38,131 bases of DNA, taken from Phycisphaerales bacterium. GTDB taxonomy: Bacteria > Planctomycetota > Phycisphaerae > Sedimentisphaerales > Anaerobacaceae. The notes under the pieces were generated by a model that was given only the letters and a program-made list of their open reading frames with translations, searched no databases and had not been told where the DNA came from. The first letter of the stretch is position 1. Each line of letters starts with the position of its first letter. The DNA is taken from NCBI GenBank assembly GCA_020346325.1, contig CP070782.1:4548803-4586933 (forward strand). Reading direction: 5' to 3'. A program made the position numbers and the translations under genes. Below, piece by piece: positions 27,382 through 38,131 of this stretch.

Positions 27382-30300
27382 CTAGTCTTCCCCTTCCATC
27401 ATGGCCCGCGCCCACTCGGTCCATTCGGTCATGTTACCGCTCGAATCACGCGCTCGAACACGAAACAGTAAACCTTGGCCAGTCCGTCCCACGAGAACGG
27501 TATAGGTGCGTTCGACCTGCCAGCCGCTGTCGAAGTCGCTTAGATCGCATTCGAAGAAGTACTCTACCGGGCCATCCGGAGAGACCACCTCGGCGGCCGT
27601 CATCTCGACGTAGTAATCGGAGGCCCCACCACCGCCGTGTACCTCATGGGGTTGCCCGTCAATGTCCCAGCGTGGCGGATTGGGCTGCAAGGAGTTCGTT
27701 GTGGCCGGCGTCGATCCCGCTCGCCCGGGCAATTCCTCCAGCCACTGTTCGTTGAGAATGTCCAGGTCATTGCCATCGACGATGCCATCGCGGTTGATGT
27801 CGCCCCGCAGAGGCCATTCGCTCAAACTGGCTTCCGGCGTGCCCCCAAAGGCACCCATGTTAATCCGGGCGCCGTTGGGCATGCGCTCGGCGCCGGGGCT
27901 GAGCCACGGATTGCCTGCGTCCACACAGGGACTCGTTACCTCATCGAAGGCCCACAGACCAAAGTTCGGCACGAAGCGTCCTCTCTCGGACAACAGGTGA
28001 TAGTCGCCGTTGGCCACATCGGCAAACAACGGATCTACCCGGATGTTGCCCTCGCCCTCGCTTCCCTGTTCGATACAACTGTAAGTCGCCGTGCAATCGA
28101 AGAGATCGCCGTCGAGGTTGTCCCACAGGATACAGTTGCTGATGTCGGGGACGGCACCGGCGTAGGCGGCGATGCCAAATTCATTGTTGGCCAGGGTCAT
28201 GTTCCGGATGGTGGGGGAGGTGCCCGCGATGAAGATGCCCACGTCACAGTTCTGGATCGCCAGGTTCTTTAGAATGCTGGTGCTGCGTTCGGCCGTGTAG
28301 AACGACACCCCGTAGCCGCCGGGTGCCTCCAGGACCGCGCCGCCCTTGGAGCCGGCCACGGTGATGGCTTTGCCGTCGAAGTTGATTTCCTCGGTGTAGA
28401 TGCCGGGCAAAACCACCACGGTGTACCCATCGCTGGCCGCCTCGATGCCTCTCTGGATAGTGGCAAACGCGTGACGAGGGCTGTATCCTTCCTGAGCATC
28501 ATCCCCATACACCGCATCGACATAGTAGTTGTAGGGTCCGTCGAACTCGTAGGCCCCCATATCAACCTTGGCGTTGACGACGCGCGGCTGTCCGGCCAGG
28601 TCCGTGGTCACCCATTCCGGCAGGAGGACTCTGCTTCCGGCGTCGATACACGGCGAGCCCACCGATAGCCGCAGGTCGTCGTCCAATGTTCCCGGCACGC
28701 CATCGGCGCCGGCCGGATCGTGAAGGCGGGGGTCAGCGTTGATGCTCCCCTGGCCGTAGCCACCACCGCGAACGTCGCTGTAGGCGATGTCGATCTGAGC
28801 GAAGGAAGAGCCTTCCACCACCGGAGTTTCTTCCCACAGGATGCAGTTGGAGAACTGCGCGGTGCTATTCGCCCAGCCGTAATAGGCATTGCCTCTCTGG
28901 GAGGCGTGGTTGGCTGTGAACGTACACCCGGTGATGGTCGTGGAAGCTCTGCTGCTGACAGCATTGACGGCTGCCCCAAGTTTGGCCGTGTTGCCGCTGA
29001 AGAGACAGTTGACCAGTAACATCTCTCCCCTTCCGGAGGCTGCTCCGCCGAAGCCTGCCGCGTTGCCGAGGAAGCGACAACTGGTGACGGTGGTCAATGT
29101 TGCGGCGTTGTAGAGCGCGCCGCCTTGTCCATCGGGGCCATCATCCTCCTGTTCATCGGTTTCGGTCTCGCCGCCCCGGCCACGCGACCGCGAACCGGCC
29201 TCGTCATTCGGATCAGCCTCAACTGTCGCACCGGCCCCGTAGGCGTCGAAGGCGATGTTGGCCCAAAAGGTGCAGCCTGTCAGACTGGGATTGCACTCGC
29301 CCGCGCTGTAGAAGGCGCCCCCGCTATGAGCAGAATTCCGCTCGAAATAGCAATCGGTCAGTACCGGATCGCTCAAAAACGTATTGTACACGGCCCCGCC
29401 GGACGAGCCGACCGCCTGGTTGCCGACGAAGGAGCAGCCCGTCAAGTGCGGATTGCTGGCGACGCAGGCGATGGCACCACCGGCAGATAGCTGCCCTATG
29501 CCGATCGTCATGTTGCCCGTGAACGCGCAATCGATCAACGTGGGAGTGCTTTGCCGCAACAGCACTCCGCCCCCATAACTCCAGGCCTCGGCGTGGTCGG
29601 CCAAGGCGATGTTCTCCACGAACGAACAGTCCTGGAAGGTGGGACTCGCATCTTCACAGGCCGCGCCGGAACCTCCCGAGGCGCCGGCGTTCGAGGCGTG
29701 GGTGGTATTGCGGTAGAACGTACACCGAATGAATCTTGGACTGGCCAACGTGATGAGGGCACCGGCACCGTCCGTAGCGGGATCGGCAGTAGGGTACGGA
29801 GGTGAGGACGTGTCCCCCCGCCGAGTTCGAGCGACCCCGGCGTTTACTCCGAAGCCTCGTCCGCCTGTAATGGTAAAGCCGTCCAGTACGCTGCTGTCCG
29901 TGACGCCAAAGGCCGTGACGACGGTATGGCAATTGTCGACACGTCTCCCATCCTTTACGAAATCAGTGAGGCCCTGCCATTCGAGGTTTTCCAGATCGGC
30001 GTCATTGCCGCGCAGATCACCGGTGAGAATGCTCGGGTAGGCTTCCACATTGCGGGCGTCCGGACGAGGATGGCCGTAGCCGCCGTAGCCGCCCCTTATC
30101 ACGACCGCTTCCGGCATGCGAAACGTCTCATCCACGCCGTCGCGCGAGGTCTGGATGTACCGATTATCGCCCGAACGAAGGATGACCGTCCGCTGGTCTG
30201 GTCTATAAGTGCCCTGAGCGACGCGAATTTCGTCACCGGCCGTGGCGCTTTCGAGGGCGTTCTGGAGACAGATGTAGGCGTCCGTCCAGTTGGAACCATT

Positions 30301-30420
30301 GTTGGCGCCGGGGGCCTGACCGTCGACGTAGATGATCCTGTCCGCCAGCACGGCATGGCTCATCCATGTCAGTAGAAGCAGGCTGGTCGCGACGCGTTGT
30401 AGAGTCCTTCTGTTCTCCAT
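27382..30420 (-). CDS. Exported right-handed parallel beta-helix protein with dockerin-like and Fn3-like C-terminus
   Basis: A 1012-residue protein with a signal peptide (VATSLLLLTWMSHAVLA, cleavage near residue 26). Mature part: a first DUF1565/pectate-lyase-like start (IIYVDGQAPGANNGSNW), then many turns of parallel beta-helix marked by repeats such as FIRCTFYRNTTH, FQDCSFVENIAL, LIDCAFTGN, LTGCSFVGN. A strongly acidic/Arg-Gly insert about 402-435 (ETETDEQEDDGPDG) interrupts the helix. A second DUF1565-like start (YYVDAVYGDDAQEG) lies near 630, with more turns to about 830. A dockerin-like calcium loop pair is at about 868-893 (GDINRDGIVDGNDLDIL), and an Fn3-like domain closes the protein. 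Such helices bind or cleave polysaccharide; no lyase active site is identifiable. Start preceded by AAAGGAG. It lies 53 bases after the sigma fusion gene and may be cotranscribed with it. Confidence 0.87.
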   Translation of the reverse strand: MENRRTLQRVATSLLLLTWMSHAVLADRIIYVDGQAPGANNGSNWTDAYICLQNALESATAGDEIRVAQGTYRPDQRTVILRSGDNRYIQTSRDGVDETFRMPEAVVIRGGYGGYGHPRPDARNVEAYPSILTGDLRGNDADLENLEWQGLTDFVKDGRRVDNCHTVVTAFGVTDSSVLDGFTITGGRGFGVNAGVARTRRGDTSSPPYPTADPATDGAGALITLASPRFIRCTFYRNTTHASNAGASGGSGAACEDASPTFQDCSFVENIALADHAEAWSYGGGVLLRQSTPTLIDCAFTGNMTIGIGQLSAGGAIACVASNPHLTGCSFVGNQAVGSSGGAVYNTFLSDPVLTDCYFERNSAHSGGAFYSAGECNPSLTGCTFWANIAFDAYGAGATVEADPNDEAGSRSRGRGGETETDEQEDDGPDGQGGALYNAATLTTVTSCRFLGNAAGFGGAASGRGEMLLVNCLFSGNTAKLGAAVNAVSSRASTTITGCTFTANHASQRGNAYYGWANSTAQFSNCILWEETPVVEGSSFAQIDIAYSDVRGGGYGQGSINADPRLHDPAGADGVPGTLDDDLRLSVGSPCIDAGSRVLLPEWVTTDLAGQPRVVNAKVDMGAYEFDGPYNYYVDAVYGDDAQEGYSPRHAFATIQRGIEAASDGYTVVVLPGIYTEEINFDGKAITVAGSKGGAVLEAPGGYGVSFYTAERSTSILKNLAIQNCDVGIFIAGTSPTIRNMTLANNEFGIAAYAGAVPDISNCILWDNLDGDLFDCTATYSCIEQGSEGEGNIRVDPLFADVANGDYHLLSERGRFVPNFGLWAFDEVTSPCVDAGNPWLSPGAERMPNGARINMGAFGGTPEASLSEWPLRGDINRDGIVDGNDLDILNEQWLEELPGRAGSTPATTNSLQPNPPRWDIDGQPHEVHGGGGASDYYVEMTAAEVVSPDGPVEYFFECDLSDFDSGWQVERTYTVLVGRTGQGLLFRVRARDSSGNMTEWTEWARAMMEGED

Positions 30421-30473: not shown

Positions 30474-32348
30474 CTACGGCGTTATCAATCGCTCCAGCCA
30501 GAATCCGGGAATCTGCTGTCTTCGCGTTGAAGCGACTCTGACGCTGGCCGGGATGGTATACTGTGCGTCTGTCTCGTCAGGAATGTCCCGAAGATATGCG
30601 AAACGAAGCTCACCTTGAGGAGTCGATTCCCCGGCGCTATCCGTGCGGAAGCTGATCGTCTCGATCACATCGGCTTCCATGTCCACGGCATAGACCAGCG
30701 TAACATCGTTCGCGTACACGGTGATTATGGTGCGCGCGGCATCGTGGTCGTAGGTGGTTTCGAACGGCAGTTCTCGCTCCGCGGCGTCACGCCGGATCGT
30801 ATCGACGCAGTGCAGACCCATCCAGGGACGCAGCAAGCCTTTGAAGACGCTGCCCCCGGCACCTCGCCCGGCGATCAGGCCGGCCCGATCGTAGATGACG
30901 GCCCCGGTCGGTGTATCTACAAACGTTTCACCGCCATCCACCCTGATCTTCAGCCACGGATACTCGGCCCGGGCCGAGGCGTGGACAAACGGCAGACGCC
31001 CCATGCCCGATACGGAGCGGCCGCCGACGCGACCGGTGATCTCGAAGTAGGTCCAGCCGCGCTGGTGCATGGCATCGCGGTGGTCGACCACCGGTATGCT
31101 TTCCGGCCAGCCGACCTGGAAGTACTCCTCCTCCAACACATTGAGATGGCGGTCGATGCGCCAGATGTTGCTGCCTCGTTCGCCTTGATTGTTACAGATG
31201 ACCAACAGTCCGTTGCGATGGCGGCTGGTCAGTTCCATATCGGTCGGGTGTCCTTCGATGCGTTCGAGGAAATCGCTCAGCTGGCGACTGTCCGTGGGCA
31301 AGCGCGTGACACTCAGATCCGGCTTCCAGACGCGATAGTTGTTGATGTGGATGGTGTCGCTCTGATCGTCGAAATGATAGTTGGCGTACTGATTCTGGAG
31401 GATCTGACAGACCGGGTTCCGGCCGTCCGCGTCGGCTTGAACCAGACGCTGCATGACGGCGCCCTGATCGCCCTCGGGGAAGTAGTACCAGTATTCCTGC
31501 TTGGCCGTCGCATCCAGGTGCAGCGGACTGGCAGGCAGGGCGTGCCCCTGGTGGGGACGCGCGCCCAAGATCGCCCTGACGCGGGCGGGCTCCACGGCTA
31601 CCGATGCGACGGCAAGACTGCCGGCCGCAGCCAACGCGATCAGACCGGTCTTGCCCGTGGTGGCCCCCACCAGGGCAGCCACCGGGCCCACCTGTAGGGT
31701 CGCGCCGGTCACGGCGACCTGGGCCGCGCTGACCTTGCTGGTGGCGGTCATTTTGCCGAATGCTACCAGGGCCAGCAGGAGCGAACCTTTGCGCAGGCCG
31801 TAAGCCGACAGGCGACGGGCCAGGAATTTCTTGGCTCGGTAGAACGAGGCGCGGGCCCCGATCTCCGAGCAGCCCATCAGCTTGGCGATTTCCGCATAGG
31901 ACAGGTGGTCGTAGCAACGCATGGTGAGGATGGCGCGGTGGTGAGGCGCCAGTTGTGAGACCGATTGGGCGACGATCTGCTTCAACTCTTCGGTGACGAC
32001 CTCCGAGAGCGTATCGTCGTCCGCGACGGGCCGGGGTTCGTAGCCGGTTTCCGAGAAGTTGCGCGTCTGACGTCGCCAGAGCTTGCCGTAGTGGTTGCGG
32101 GTCTTGTTGGTCGCGATCCCGTAGAGCCAGGGCCAGAACGTTTCAGCCTTCCGCAGTTTTCGAAGAATTCTGAGCATTTCCAGCATGGTCTCCTGCACGA
32201 TGTCCTGGGTGAGGTCCTCGTTGAGCGTCAGTCGCAACACGTATTCATGCAAACGAACCCTCGCCGTCTTGGCCAAGTCACTGAGACTGTCCTTGTCGCC
32301 AAGCTGTGCCTTCTTGACCAATACAATGTCATTGTTCTGGTGAGACAT
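30474..32348 (-). CDS. ECF sigma factor fused to a membrane segment and a large C-terminal domain
   Basis: A 624-residue protein. Residues about 8-92 are sigma region 2 (LRLTLNEDLTQDIVQETMLE, ETFWPWLYGIATNKTRNH) and about 118-180 are sigma region 4 with a clear helix-turn-helix (DHLSYAEIAKLMGCSEIGAR). Normal ECF sigma factors end there (about 180-200 residues). Here follow a hydrophobic, Ala/Gly/Val-rich stretch (188-253, with GKTGLIALAAAGSLAVASVAV as a likely membrane span) and a C-terminal domain of about 345 residues, beta-rich, with no recognised family. Planctomycetes are known for ECF factors with long C-terminal extensions, which can act as built-in regulators. A membrane-tied sigma that senses the envelope and controls its neighbours is plausible. 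It is placed just before the beta-helix gene on the same strand. The ribosome site is weak. Confidence is high for sigma, low for function of the C-terminal part. Confidence 0.88.
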   Translation of the reverse strand: MSHQNNDIVLVKKAQLGDKDSLSDLAKTARVRLHEYVLRLTLNEDLTQDIVQETMLEMLRILRKLRKAETFWPWLYGIATNKTRNHYGKLWRRQTRNFSETGYEPRPVADDDTLSEVVTEELKQIVAQSVSQLAPHHRAILTMRCYDHLSYAEIAKLMGCSEIGARASFYRAKKFLARRLSAYGLRKGSLLLALVAFGKMTATSKVSAAQVAVTGATLQVGPVAALVGATTGKTGLIALAAAGSLAVASVAVEPARVRAILGARPHQGHALPASPLHLDATAKQEYWYYFPEGDQGAVMQRLVQADADGRNPVCQILQNQYANYHFDDQSDTIHINNYRVWKPDLSVTRLPTDSRQLSDFLERIEGHPTDMELTSRHRNGLLVICNNQGERGSNIWRIDRHLNVLEEEYFQVGWPESIPVVDHRDAMHQRGWTYFEITGRVGGRSVSGMGRLPFVHASARAEYPWLKIRVDGGETFVDTPTGAVIYDRAGLIAGRGAGGSVFKGLLRPWMGLHCVDTIRRDAAERELPFETTYDHDAARTIITVYANDVTLVYAVDMEADVIETISFRTDSAGESTPQGELRFAYLRDIPDETDAQYTIPASVRVASTRRQQIPGFWLERLITP

Positions 32349-32451: not shown

Positions 32452-34968
32452 TTACGGGGCGTCCGAAATGAGGGTCCGCAGCAACTGGAACTCCAGTTCG
32501 TAGACGTTGCGCAGCGCGGCATCAGGTATCACATTGCCCGTGACGCCCATCTTCGCGTCGGTGAAGCGGCTCCCGAAGCCCACCACGGTCACGGTTCCGG
32601 CCCCGAGACGAGCCGTCGCGGCCACGGGCCGGGCCTCGATCCGGATCAGCGGCGTGCCCCCTTGGATTTCGCAGGCGGTTTCGGCGGCAACACCGCCGGG
32701 CCAGCCTTCGGGTGTCTCCAAGCGCCCGGTCAACTGGGCCGATCGGTCGATGCGCAAGTCGAACGGATGCAGCAGAGCGTTGGCTGTCGAGTCGGTGTTG
32801 GCGGGTGAATCGACGATGAGTACTTTGCCGCCGGCCTCGACATAGTCCACCAGCCCCTGGCGGAAATCGACCGCAACCTCTCGGTTGGGGTACAGCAGCA
32901 CGAGCGCGTCGCCTGCAAAGGCCGCGCGGTCTGCGCGGCGTGAGGTGAAATAGCCGAGTCGCAGGATCCATCGCTCGAAGATGCCGAAGCCATCTTCCGC
33001 TCCGGCGATGAAACCGCTCTCGGAAAGCGGGCCATCGCAGACCGTCCGATCGATGACGACGTGCGTGAGGGGCCGCTTGGCTTGAGGCACTGGCATCGCC
33101 GCTCGATGGATACCGTTGGCGATGGCCCCGGCTGCACTGACGCCGAGCAATCCAGCGCTAAGCAAAATGAACCAGCCGCCCGACTGGCCGCGTGCAGCGA
33201 CAAGGGCGCCAAACAGGAGCAACCCGCCCAAGGCCACCAGTAGCGGGCGTGAGTCTGAGCTTGGGTTGCGGTGGTTGAGCCACTGCAGCATGCCCAGCAT
33301 CAGTTCGGCTTTGCCCGGCTCGAACGTCGAGAAATTGGAGAAAATCGTCGAGTCACCAAAGGCGGCCACCCGTCCGGCTCCGTACGGTGTCGTCCAGAGT
33401 TGGGTAAAGGCCCCGTAGCGTGCTTCGGCCCGGTCCGTCACCTGCGGATAGTAGTTGCTGGCGTGGTAATCGGCCGGTAGACCCCGCAGACCGCGCGCCG
33501 CGATGGCGGCACACCCTGCGTTCATACCCGGATCGATGGAACACGCCACGGCGAAATCGAGCGGCGGCAGGTGCTGGACGATCGGATGCGGCACGGCAGG
33601 GCGATGATACAGTTGATTGAAAGTGGTGTCGATATCGAACAGGCAGTCGTAGCGGAAGCGAAATCCGAAACGCGCGGCAATGTCGTTGAGATAGGTCCCC
33701 GTGTTGAAAACATTGGTGTGCTCGCCGATCAACAGCAGCCCTCCACCATCGGCAACGAAGCGTTCGATCTGATCGATCTCTGCGGAATTGTACCGGGCGG
33801 TAGGGACCTTGACGATCAGGACGTCGCACTCGGTAAGGGTATCGGCGTCGATCGGTGTGTGCAGACGACCCATATCATAGAAGCGGGAGCAGTAATCGTA
33901 GATACAGGCGTAGTTGTAGCCCGATTCCTGCCCGTACCAGTTGGGATCGTAAGGCCGGTCGGTACGCTCCCAGGTGGAGCGGTGTTCATCGACCCAAATG
34001 CGGCCTTGCTTCGCGGGGCCTGAAGGCTCCCATACCAGCGAGAGAGTCAACACCAGCGATCCGATGAGAGCCAGGGCCGTCGGAACCATGCGCCTGGACC
34101 AGACCGCGTGTGGCGTCTGAATCGATCCGGCCACAACCGGTGGAGGCATTCGGATGAACCGCAGGGCCAGCAGGACCGGTCCGATCAACAGGGCCAGGTG
34201 AACCCACAGGCTCCAGAATTGATTCATCAGCACCAGGGGCGTGTTGTAGTCGGTGCGCAAGGCTCGGTGCATGAAGATAGCGATCAGCAGAGCCGCGCGG
34301 ACGGGCAGCCACAGAGCGACCGAAACGATCAGTATCGAGACCGATGACAAAAGCTGCCGCGTCGACTTGCCCCGGGCGTTTAGCGTCGGCACTCGCAGGC
34401 AGACCAGCGCAACGCCTCCTGTGAGGAATGCGAATGTCACCGGGTCCAACAGGAGCTCCCAGGTGGCACCGAGCTGATGAACGCGGCGGATCGAGTGTAG
34501 GGCCAGCGACGTGCCGTCGAGTGCCGCTTGTATCCCCAGCAGGTGTGCGGCGCCATGGAGGATCTGCGGCAATCGCCAGGGCAGTTCATGAGACCGCGCG
34601 GTGAAGGCTTCGTAGGCAAGCAGGGCCAGGGCCTGCACCGCGAGAACCGAGCCGGCGGTCAGAGCCGCCGCGCCGATTCGCCCGGGCCAGTGGCGCCGAA
34701 TCGGTGCCGCCGAGATAAGCAAGCCGACGAAGAGCAACAGGACCGCCGCTCGATAGGGCCAGGGGACCAGCAGCAGGGGGGCAATCAGCAGCGCTGCCGC
34801 GACGATCAAATCGCTGCGCTTGGGCTTGCGCAAAGGGAAGTCGAAGAGAAAGCACGTGCCGACACCGACCAGCACCGCCCAGACGATCCAACGGGGATCG
34901 TGGTAAGTGCCCAGGCTCGCCAGCCAGGACGCACTCAACAGTGCCAGACCGAGCCAGACGCGTCTCAT
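32452..34968 (-). CDS. Polytopic membrane protein with two GATase/DUF4350-like domains (second of a pair)
   Basis: An 838-residue protein. The N-terminal 330 residues have about seven to nine membrane spans. A first soluble domain follows (about 335-600) with LIVKVPTARYNSAEIDQIERFV, GGGLLLIGEHTNVF and GRVAAFGDSTIF. Two more spans come next (LLVALGGLLLFGALVAA, GGWFILLSAGLLGVSAAG), and a second similar domain closes it (ALVLLYPNREV, GGKVLIVDSPANTD, GTVTVVGFGSRF). Such domains resemble the DUF4350/GldG-type, class I glutamine amidotransferase-like fold, and lack a visible catalytic Cys. ATG 34968 is set by GAGGAGG (34976-34982) seven bases upstream; a start at 35052 would add an Arg/Gly leader over the neighbour. 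It overlaps the upstream gene by four bases (ATGA), so the two are one unit. Role unknown; envelope- or ABC-system-related by analogy to gliding auxiliary proteins. Confidence 0.78.
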   Translation of the reverse strand: MRRVWLGLALLSASWLASLGTYHDPRWIVWAVLVGVGTCFLFDFPLRKPKRSDLIVAAALLIAPLLLVPWPYRAAVLLLFVGLLISAAPIRRHWPGRIGAAALTAGSVLAVQALALLAYEAFTARSHELPWRLPQILHGAAHLLGIQAALDGTSLALHSIRRVHQLGATWELLLDPVTFAFLTGGVALVCLRVPTLNARGKSTRQLLSSVSILIVSVALWLPVRAALLIAIFMHRALRTDYNTPLVLMNQFWSLWVHLALLIGPVLLALRFIRMPPPVVAGSIQTPHAVWSRRMVPTALALIGSLVLTLSLVWEPSGPAKQGRIWVDEHRSTWERTDRPYDPNWYGQESGYNYACIYDYCSRFYDMGRLHTPIDADTLTECDVLIVKVPTARYNSAEIDQIERFVADGGGLLLIGEHTNVFNTGTYLNDIAARFGFRFRYDCLFDIDTTFNQLYHRPAVPHPIVQHLPPLDFAVACSIDPGMNAGCAAIAARGLRGLPADYHASNYYPQVTDRAEARYGAFTQLWTTPYGAGRVAAFGDSTIFSNFSTFEPGKAELMLGMLQWLNHRNPSSDSRPLLVALGGLLLFGALVAARGQSGGWFILLSAGLLGVSAAGAIANGIHRAAMPVPQAKRPLTHVVIDRTVCDGPLSESGFIAGAEDGFGIFERWILRLGYFTSRRADRAAFAGDALVLLYPNREVAVDFRQGLVDYVEAGGKVLIVDSPANTDSTANALLHPFDLRIDRSAQLTGRLETPEGWPGGVAAETACEIQGGTPLIRIEARPVAATARLGAGTVTVVGFGSRFTDAKMGVTGNVIPDAALRNVYELEFQLLRTLISDAP

Positions 34969-37592
34969 GGCTGGACCTCCTCGGCCGGAACGTCCTGGGC
35001 GGGCGCGCTGCCTGCGGAATCCGCCGGGCTTTGCAGCGCCGGAGGAAGCCACATCGGCCCGTCGTGCAGGAGCGTGATCAGCCAGCGCCAGAAGTCGGCG
35101 TTCTCACGCAGTCCTTCGAAAGGCTGGCCGTTTTCCTGTTCGAGGTTCTTGTTCATCGCGAAGCCCGTATCGCCCACGAAGAGCACCTTGCCAGCGCCGA
35201 CACGTCGCAGCATGGCCACCGGCTGATTGTCGCGTCCATAGGCGATTGTCTGTGCGTCCGGATCGGTGCAGCGAACGGGCCAGGCCGCATGGAAGCGTAC
35301 GTAGACTCGGCGACTGTCTGACTCCAGATAGGGCGATTTGAAATGCCCCAGAGGGGTCGGTTCTATTGAATCATTGGTGCCGAATCCAAATCCGAACCGC
35401 CGCAAAAGAGGCTCGTTGCCCTGGGCCTCGTCGTAGCCGACGTTGATGACGAAGAGGCCGCCGCTATTGACAAACTCTGCGATCGCATCGATCTCGGCCT
35501 CGGTAAACGCGCGGGTCGGGGCGATGGAGATCAGCAGTCCTGCCTTCTCGAGACGCGCCGATGTCAGCTCGGGCAAAACCAGGGTCAGATAACCATTGCG
35601 CATCAAGGTCAGTGCCAGCCCGCCGATCCCGTCGCCGCGCCACGATTCGCCACTGCAGGCGTTTAGATGCGAAGCGTCGATGTAGGCCAGATGGTTGGGA
35701 GATGTCGCGCGGCCGTCGGGCAGCACGTTGCCGGCTGCCACGGTGATCTGTTGGCAGATCACGACCGCGGCGGCCAGACCCAGGACAACCAGGATCGTGC
35801 GGGCGAGACTGGAGCGCCAGCAGAGCAGCGCTGTGAGGAAGGCGCCAGCGAGCACGCCCAACAGTTGACGCCACCAGGGGTGCGCCTTGTCGGCTGACGC
35901 CGCCAGATAGGCGAAGAGGCGGGAGGTGAAAACGTGCGACGTCACTTCGATGGCGTTCTGCAGACTGGAGGTATCGCCAAACGCGACAACCCGACCCTTA
36001 CCGAGGGGCTGTTCGGCCGCTAGGACTACATCGCCTAGGAGTTCACCGCTATCATAGCGACCGTTGCCCATCATGGCGCGGTCGCTCGCTTCGTCGCCCG
36101 GATCCGCCCAGCCCCAACGCCCGACCAGCAGTGGCCGAGCGGGCCAGCGCGTCCGAACCGAGGCGCCGATGACCACGCCGAACTGATTGCGGTCGTCCGG
36201 AATGCCGGTGGTGATGGGATGGCTCAGGGATTCGTAGGAATGCAGCCAGCCTCCGACGGCAAACGTGGCCGAATCGAAACGGATGCGCAGCGCCGTCGGC
36301 GCCAGCACTTCGTTGAAGCGATTGCTGCCGTTCGGATCGATCTCCGTATGCTCGCCCATCAGCAGCAGCGACCCGCCTTGTCGCACGAAATCGTGGATGC
36401 GATCCAACTGGCCTTCGGCCCACGGCTTGTCGGGGTTCAGCAGGACGAGTGCGTCGGCATCCTGAAGATCGTCGGCCGATAGTTCCGGCGAAACCACGCT
36501 TGTGGCGCCCAGGCTCTCGACGAAGACCGGGAGCATGCCGTACATGCCACTCGAGAGTCGGCCGTAGGAGCCATGCGTCGGTTTGAGCCAGTTGAGGAAG
36601 CCCTTTTCGTAGAACACGATTCTCTTGCCGGCGAGATCGAGTGGATTCGTAAAGAGCGTGGCGATCACCGGCACCAGGATCGCCATCGAGAGCGCCGCCC
36701 CACCCAGGGCCGCTCGGGCGCGGAACGAGGGGACCGCCTGGCCCGCGGGTTCACGGTCTACGGTGGGGCTCCAGGCTGTCCAGCGTACCATGGCGCCAGC
36801 GATCACCAAATGGATCAATGCCGCGACGGCCGGCGCGTTCCAAGGCAAAGCTTCATGAAGCCATCGCGCCAGCGACCAACCGGTGTGGTCGGCCGGCTCG
36901 GGAAGGGCCGCCAGGAGATTCGGCACGTAGGCCAAACCGATCAGATAGACGAGATGCCCGCCTGCGATCGCGACGAAACCGCAGAGGGCACGCGCTCGGC
37001 GCGGCGGCTTCGTGTAGTGCAAAGAGAGGGCCCAGAAGATACTCATGACGAGCAGGAAGTCGAGCCCTGCGAAGGTCGCGCCCACGCGGAGCGGGGCTGC
37101 CAGGACGTCTCCCAGCGTCCCGATGGAACGACCGATCCGGTCGGCGAGCAGCCAGACCCACGGGATGGATGTGCGCGCAAGAACATAGAGGCCGAACACC
37201 GCCACCGCGGTGGCAGCAGCAAGAAACGGGTTTCTGCCCTTGTCATCGTTCAGGAAGGCGAGAAAGGCCAGAGCCAATGCTGCCGCCAGAATGTTCACGG
37301 GCAGAGCGGGCAACATGACCAGGTACGCGGCCGGAATCGCCACGATCGGAGTGAGCAGCATGCGCAGCGCCGGTCGCAGGGTGCCGATTCCGGGGGCCAG
37401 CAACGCGGCGCCGAGGGCGATCAGGGTCAGCGCCCGACGCAAGGGGTGGGCCAACAGCCCGGTCGATCCGGCGGCGATCCACGCGCCCGCCAGGCAGGCC
37501 AACAAGGCCAGCACGGTCCCGAACGCGGGCGGCAGACAAGTCACGTGCCCCGGGGCTCGCTGTTCGCATTGTTCCTGTTCTGGCGTGTACAC
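34965..37592 (-). CDS. Polytopic membrane protein with two GATase/DUF4350-like domains (first of a pair)
   Basis: An 875-residue protein with the same layout as its downstream neighbour. The N-terminal 325 residues hold about eight or nine membrane spans. A soluble domain (about 330-580) has LSADDLQDADALVLLNP, GGSLLLMGEHTEID and GRVVAFGDTSSLQ. Two spans (LLGVLAGAFLTALLCW, ILVVLGLAAAVVICQQ) lead to a second soluble domain with GLLISIAPTRAFTEAEIDAI, GGLFVINVGYDEAQG and GKVLFVGDTGFAMN. It ends in an Ala/Pro/Ser tail. The start is a GTG with AAGGA nine bases upstream. The shared pattern (span block, domain, two spans, domain; GEHT and GDT/GDS turns at matching places) shows the pair arose by duplication. 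Function unknown; the stacked domains may bind a ligand or a partner ATPase. Confidence 0.78.
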   Translation of the reverse strand: MYTPEQEQCEQRAPGHVTCLPPAFGTVLALLACLAGAWIAAGSTGLLAHPLRRALTLIALGAALLAPGIGTLRPALRMLLTPIVAIPAAYLVMLPALPVNILAAALALAFLAFLNDDKGRNPFLAAATAVAVFGLYVLARTSIPWVWLLADRIGRSIGTLGDVLAAPLRVGATFAGLDFLLVMSIFWALSLHYTKPPRRARALCGFVAIAGGHLVYLIGLAYVPNLLAALPEPADHTGWSLARWLHEALPWNAPAVAALIHLVIAGAMVRWTAWSPTVDREPAGQAVPSFRARAALGGAALSMAILVPVIATLFTNPLDLAGKRIVFYEKGFLNWLKPTHGSYGRLSSGMYGMLPVFVESLGATSVVSPELSADDLQDADALVLLNPDKPWAEGQLDRIHDFVRQGGSLLLMGEHTEIDPNGSNRFNEVLAPTALRIRFDSATFAVGGWLHSYESLSHPITTGIPDDRNQFGVVIGASVRTRWPARPLLVGRWGWADPGDEASDRAMMGNGRYDSGELLGDVVLAAEQPLGKGRVVAFGDTSSLQNAIEVTSHVFTSRLFAYLAASADKAHPWWRQLLGVLAGAFLTALLCWRSSLARTILVVLGLAAAVVICQQITVAAGNVLPDGRATSPNHLAYIDASHLNACSGESWRGDGIGGLALTLMRNGYLTLVLPELTSARLEKAGLLISIAPTRAFTEAEIDAIAEFVNSGGLFVINVGYDEAQGNEPLLRRFGFGFGTNDSIEPTPLGHFKSPYLESDSRRVYVRFHAAWPVRCTDPDAQTIAYGRDNQPVAMLRRVGAGKVLFVGDTGFAMNKNLEQENGQPFEGLRENADFWRWLITLLHDGPMWLPPALQSPADSAGSAPAQDVPAEEVQP

Positions 37593-37734: not shown

Positions 37735-38131
37735 TCAATTCTGTGCCACAGCCACCGCCAGGTAGTCAGCGACGGTCGGGCACGGGGCCTCCACGGCCGG
37801 GCACGGCTCGATCGCGGTTTTGCTCAGCAGTATCTGGCAGGTCGCCGGACACTTTGTCTTCACGGGCGGACATTTGGTTTCGGTCGCGGGACAGCGAGTC
37901 TCCGCGGGCGGGCACTTGGTGACAGACACCGGACATTGGGTCTCCGTCACGGGACATTTGGTCTCGACCGCCGGGCAACTGGTCTCCTGGGCCTGGCAGG
38001 TCGTCTGGGTCATGGGACATTTGGTTTCCACGGACGGACACTGGGTCTCGACCACTGGACAGGCCGTCGCGCTGGTCGGGCATTGCGTTTCCGTCGTCGG
38101 ACACTGGGTCGCCACCGCCGGACATTTGGTT
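37735..38131 (-). CDS. Cys-Pro heptad-repeat protein, N-terminal part cut by window edge
   Basis: The frame is open to the window edge; a GTG at 38115 is not a real start because the repeat continues past it. The visible part is 131 residues. At least 13 consecutive heptads of the form CPxxxTx (examples CPTTETQ, CPVVETQ, CPAVETK, CPVTETQ) are encoded by 21-base units at 37852-38124. One unit has CQ instead of CP. After the array come CPATCQILLSKTAIEPCPAVEAPCPT and the short tail VADYLAVAVAQN. Cys every seventh residue beside Pro, with Thr at position 6 and Lys/Gln/Arg at 7, suggests an extended rod with cysteines in a line, good for disulfide links, metal binding or lipid/heme attachment; none is proven. 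No known family is recognised. It lies 142 bases upstream of the paired membrane-protein genes. Confidence 0.7.
   Translation of the reverse strand, partial: TKCPAVATQCPTTETQCPTSATACPVVETQCPSVETKCPMTQTTCQAQETSCPAVETKCPVTETQCPVSVTKCPPAETRCPATETKCPPVKTKCPATCQILLSKTAIEPCPAVEAPCPTVADYLAVAVAQN
37852..38124 (-). repeat. Thirteen tandem 21-base repeat units encoding Cys-Pro heptads
   Basis: Thirteen diverged 21-base units lie head to tail without gaps and stay in frame, each beginning with a Cys codon followed (in all but one) by Pro. Synonymous differences between units mean the array is old and kept by selection on the protein rather than a fresh DNA expansion. It continues at least two codons to the window edge. 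Confidence 0.85.

Follow-up and report, generated by a model that had tools for sequence, protein, structure and literature searches.

An early finding cited in a passage of PMC3035269 describes a planctomycete envelope as protein rich in proline and cysteine and stabilised by disulfides. In the literature we found, the named candidates for this Cys/Pro-rich material are the YTV-domain proteins, which are Cys-rich, exported and present in planctomycete cell-wall preparations, and which have been reported from Planctomycetales only (PMC8567305). On the membrane side, DUF4350/GldG-like proteins are predicted to take part in a secretion or membrane-remodelling complex and are encoded beside S-layer and Ig-like proteins (PMC5898192). 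Here we describe a locus of a Phycisphaerales bacterium, contained in a stretch of 38,131 nucleotides (the window), in which a gene for a Cys-Pro heptad protein stands beside two genes for large membrane proteins, A and B. The new element is a linked GldG-like pair set beside Cys-rich exported repeat proteins. These array proteins are like the YTV proteins (PF07639) in being Cys-rich exported planctomycete proteins; they differ in having another repeat and no Pfam YTV match, and a YTV profile search of 89 genomes of the window's GTDB family gave 0 matches, control genomes being equally silent. By sequence, the heptad protein is apparently a second Cys-Pro repeat protein, unrelated to YTV. The disulfide beta-helix antifreeze proteins of insects and the minicollagens of cnidarians likewise have regular Cys/Thr or Cys/Pro repeats that disulfides hold in place; the likeness lies in the regular Cys repeats, no sequence relationship was found, and we take it as a lead only.

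The window holds the end of the heptad gene (table 1). A minus-strand frame (38130..37738, stop codon at 37735-37737) encodes 131 residues (TKCPAVATQCPTTETQ...TKCPATCQILLSKTAIEPCPAVEAPCPTVADYLAVAVAQN*), the first 95 of which form gapless C-P-x-x-x-T-x heptads with 14 C-x6-C steps, Pro occupying position 2 and Thr position 6 in 93% of steps each. In 20,000 codon shuffles of the fragment, the number of C-x6-C steps averaged 1.97 and reached a maximum of 8, against 14 in the real sequence, and other open frames across the same DNA were without comparable repeat support. All units of the window are distinct (13/13), and the identity between units is 0.67, 0.69 and 0.45 at codon positions 1, 2 and 3, respectively; because third-position identity falls below that of the first and second positions, selection acts at the protein level. 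Cys, Pro and Thr also make use of all their synonymous codons across 743 units from 21 loci. After the linker, the fragment ends in CPAVEAPCPTVADYLAVAVAQN, and the same ending of the cap, with its two further Cys seven residues apart (C110 and C117), is present in orthologues. A sequence-only reading of the window had recognised a gapless CPxxxTx array under protein-level selection, and both the shuffle test and the codon usage bear this out. The heptads are real, with two refinements: positions 37735-38131 hold the 3' end of a minus-strand gene, not its start, and the last ~36 codons are linker and cap rather than array.

Table 1. Features of the array gene and of the paired membrane protein genes in the window
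Feature	Coordinates	Strand	Evidence
3' end of the CP-heptad gene, 131 codons and stop	37735..38130	(-)	ORF listing
Heptad array C-P-x-x-x-T-x, 14 Cys at seven-residue steps	37846..38130	(-)	Shuffle test, orthologue alignment
Variable linker ATCQILLSKTAIE, array to cap	37807..37845	(-)	Orthologue alignment
Conserved C-terminal cap PCPAVEAPCPTVADYLAVAVAQN, consensus CPxVxxxC[PL]TVADYLA	37738..37806	(-)	Invariant C110 and C117 in orthologue alignment
Membrane protein A, 875 aa, ~9 hydrophobic segments; DUF4350, ABC_transp_aux, IFT52_GIFT, weak GldG	34965..37592	(-)	Pfam, NCBIfam, hydropathy, co-occurrence
Membrane protein B, 866 aa, ~10 hydrophobic segments; DUF4350, ABC_transp_aux	32452..35052	(-)	Pfam, hydropathy, conserved order array-A-B

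The repeat was also correctly judged to belong to no recognised family. Pfam gave none for the window fragment (E up to 0.01) or for six array proteins of other lineages (E up to 1), no NCBIfam family covers the array, the sole match in a PDB sequence search was a weak one to granulin (E=0.056), and we found no description of a CP-heptad repeat in the open-access literature.

The array had been said to run out of the window, and it does so because a 100-N scaffold gap begins directly past the last base (L006 8935-9034). The window sits within a single 6.5-Mb scaffold, on which a second array piece (L007) lies 1.9 Mb away, with 87% identity over 267 bases; this piece encodes a signal peptide, a DUF7901 domain, a GEVED domain, another DUF7901 domain and 28 heptad steps, and then meets a 100-N gap. 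In four genomes of the same genus (L184-L187), one gene combines an N-terminal part like that of L007 (55-65% identity) with the array and the cap, in the order signal peptide, DUF7901, GEVED, DUF7901, ~23-35 heptads, linker and conserved C-terminal motif, and the window's two membrane proteins come directly after it. Since these relatives carry both parts as a single gene, the window fragment and the L007 piece are almost certainly one gene split at its repeat. We rejected the presence of two separate array genes in this genome, as the same-genus relatives have one and the pieces are complementary halves. The domain assignments in L007 are well above the Pfam cut-offs (DUF7901, 280 bits vs 24; GEVED, 64.9 bits vs 24.4), and the orthologues L186 and L191 likewise pass the gathering scores of both families, whereas signal peptides were judged by eye in the full-length homologues. 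What had been taken for a small ORF before the membrane proteins is the C-terminal end of a multidomain protein of ~1,200 residues. Frameshifts, a missing start or a loss of the Cys positions in homologues had been named as findings that would speak against the repeat protein; the full-length homologues have an intact frame that begins with a signal peptide, and the Cys are invariant in the orthologue alignment.

Assembly breaks inside such arrays also occur in other genomes of the family, and 100-N gaps were seen to coincide exactly with arrays (G000:C1, L006, L007). The 6.5-Mb contig is a scaffold whose gene order is unreliable wherever it spans a gap of this sort. Genes of this kind are probably under-reported, since assemblies break at the arrays. 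As a separate observation, the window also encodes an exported right-handed beta-helix protein (27382-30420, minus strand), whose C-terminal motif FRVRARDxSGNxTEW recurs past the array gap in L007.

Following the suggestion of the sequence-only reading that the pattern be sought more widely, we found that arrays recur in scattered planctomycetes and in a few members of a neighbouring phylum. With Thr required at position 6, they were identified in 22 of the 89 family genomes, the reversed pattern giving 0. In a sample of the phylum, 9 of 392 genomes match the Thr6 pattern, seven of which are true array carriers from seven families; G194 and G256 were left out, as their matches look like chance or DNA repeats. 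Of 289 genomes sampled from the phylum to which an Akkermansiaceae MAG belongs, 3 match, that MAG being one of them. Searches with the bare CP heptad yield mostly low-complexity DNA repeats, nearly all of which are cleared by the Thr6 requirement. Viral contigs gave 22 matches (19 with short open arrays, 3 without), and their arrays consist mostly of near-identical units, as is typical of DNA tandem repeats.

Array length ranges from 11 to about 80 units across loci, unit blocks are duplicated within some arrays, and several array proteins have an odd Cys total. The associated domains vary as well: L149 (58 steps) and L284 (about 70) consist of a signal peptide and an array with no other domain recognised, in L304 the array is fused to a dockerin domain, and in L285 to a borderline lamin-tail domain (34.1 bits, cut-off 34.3). 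G114, the genome of L304, holds a further heptad-like array on another contig (L305), with an Ig-like tail seen by eye and no Pfam match. In L089 (2617-3237, plus strand), a cytochrome-c-like tail comes after the array and has CSCH where CxxCH would be expected; this tail matches no Pfam cytochrome family, and the NCBIfam matches of L089 (E=0.01 at best) fall far short of their cut-offs.

In the window, A and then B come downstream of the array gene on its strand; as annotated, the reading frames of A and B overlap by 88 bases. Across the 21 compared loci and L284, A comes after the array gene on the same strand, at a distance that is mostly no more than about 430 bases (L089 has 731), and B nearly always after A; no neighbouring gene other than this pair is conserved in all of the compared loci. 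The pair is present in 22/22 array genomes of the family and in 2 of the 67 array-less ones (G481 and G477, the contig of the latter ending just upstream of the pair), which corresponds to a Fisher test p of about 7e-19 over the 89 genomes, ignoring phylogeny; by genus, arrays occur in 7/45 and the pair in 8/45. Beyond the family, the linkage extends to the planctomycetes G050, G041 and a JAPLNA MAG (L089) and to G721 from the phylum of the Akkermansiaceae MAG; in G041 only A stands beside the array, where the contig ends, and in G103 array and pair are adjacent and divergent. As to whether the repeat protein always lies beside the paired membrane proteins, co-occurrence is near-complete in the family and the linkage recurs in other lineages, but array and pair are apart or on separate contigs in seven genomes (G430, G540, G491, G046, G542, G114 and G822), and in G080, which has an array, we found no pair. 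G481 carries a distant version of the pair, situated directly downstream of two neighbouring Cys/Thr-rich proteins (L253, G481:C1, 9986-10999 and 11270-12241, minus strand; 45 and 42 Cys), which share a common N-terminal part and carry TCxGxx repeats with a period of about 6. Judged from this genome, the pair may work with Cys-rich repeat proteins at large.

Both A and B exceed the Pfam gathering score of DUF4350 (PF14258; 68.4 and 52.7 bits, respectively, vs 30.4). The GldG model (TIGR03521) matches A at 18.2 bits (E=7e-4), against an NCBIfam equivalog cut-off of 389.85, and does not match B: the pair is GldG-like in one domain, and is not GldG. Its likeness to the described GldG/DUF4350 proteins (arCOG01314) lies in the DUF4350 and ABC_transp_aux (GldG-type) regions. 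The pair differs from them in being much larger, with about 8 N-terminal hydrophobic segments, and in being encoded as two proteins; moreover, we noticed no ABC ATPase/permease or vWA/AAA partner next to the pair, which has the Cys array as its partner. We also considered whether A and B are exosortase-like in their N-terminal membrane part, and rejected this for lack of a family match and of a conserved Cys.

Of the 743 units, 97% have Thr6 and 91% have Pro2, and the units prefer C at position 1, V/I/T at 4, E/D at 5, T at 6 and Q/K/R at 7, an alternation resembling that of an extended strand with Pro after it. Two observations bear on a possible disulfide beta-solenoid like that of the antifreeze proteins. 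AlphaFold2 arrived at no confident array structure (pLDDT of 56 from 10 sequences and of 44 from a single sequence). Unit types recur about every 2.7 units (~19 residues), with a pooled peak at the edge of significance; once duplications are removed, 5 of 19 arrays reach p<0.05 where about 1 is expected. This superperiod is suggestive; we do not claim it and keep it out of the argument.

The repeat, its conservation at the protein level, the signal peptides seen by eye, the linkage and the co-occurrence define a module, from which we infer disulfides, a rod shape and a role of the pair in export or anchoring. We favour, with a probability of roughly 0.55, a Sec-exported, disulfide-stabilised stalk or coat that is assembled or anchored by the GldG-like pair. 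Counting against it are the low AlphaFold2 confidence for the array, the genomes in which array and pair are separated or the pair was not found, and the odd Cys totals of several proteins. Export of the repeat protein, already suspected from the sequence alone, is supported by the signal peptides of the full-length homologues, which place the array outside the cytoplasm, presumably by way of Sec. Regularly spaced Cys outside the cytoplasm would normally oxidise. Here they would form disulfides inside the rod, between neighbouring chains, or both, while Pro2 and the near-invariant Thr6 would hold the heptads extended, so that the array could act as a stiff stalk or coat strand keeping the N-terminal domains off the cell. 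Since DUF4350/GldG-like proteins are predicted to work in a secretion or membrane-remodelling complex, the pair may export, assemble or anchor the array protein, bringing it to the surface or holding it there, perhaps through recognition of the cap or of the array.

The array might instead be a mere spacer or stalk, with the DUF7901/GEVED region doing the work and the pair playing another role in the same regulon. The lineage-dependent partner domains (DUF7901/GEVED, dockerin in L304, borderline lamin-tail in L285) and the variable number of units agree with this, but L149 and L284 are array-only proteins still beside the pair, which indicates that the array itself is the common factor, and we consider the spacer explanation unlikely. 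A thiol store, in which the Cys arrays bind soft metals or serve as an extracellular redox buffer, would suit the very high Cys content and regular spacing, and the CSCH of the L089 tail could hint at redox work; however, the heptad is without His, CxxC or CxC, Pro2 and Thr6 are kept more tightly than a metal site requires, the L089 tail has no Pfam cytochrome match and no metal-handling gene was noticed among the scanned neighbours of the locus, so that this function seems distinctly improbable. Being the best-kept residue after Cys and lying two residues ahead of the next Cys, Thr6 could also be a site of glycosylation or other modification, the array then being a mucin-like or thioether-modified polymer; yet Ser replaces it in only 6/743 units, a better fit to a structural beta-branched residue than to an O-linked site, and no neighbour gene besides the pair is conserved across all compared loci, and we give such a polymer very little credence. 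Finally, although duplicated blocks, assembly breaks and viral-contig heptads with near-identical units recall a by-product of DNA tandem repetition, this origin is already contradicted by the distinct window units with their freely varying third bases, the intact frames with signal peptides and the conserved genomic position.

Coming back to the disulfide-stabilised stalk or coat, the linked pair could be the assembly machinery of the array protein, and the gene set points to what may be an undescribed cysteine-bonded surface structure with an assembly machinery of its own. In a bolder and more doubtful form, which we put forward tentatively, the pair of GldG-like polytopic proteins would be a dedicated two-component assembly/secretion system, lacking the ABC partners of GldG, by which several planctomycete lineages and at least one other phylum turn Cys-Pro-Thr heptad proteins into a disulfide-locked fibre or coat outside the cell. 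The gene set makes the question of Cys/Pro-rich surface material and its placement concretely testable.

The window further encodes an ECF-type sigma factor (30474-32348, minus strand) with Sigma70 regions 2 and 4, a long C-terminal part and one hydrophobic segment; an ECF-type sigma factor also comes after the A/B pair in L185 and L186, of the same genus.
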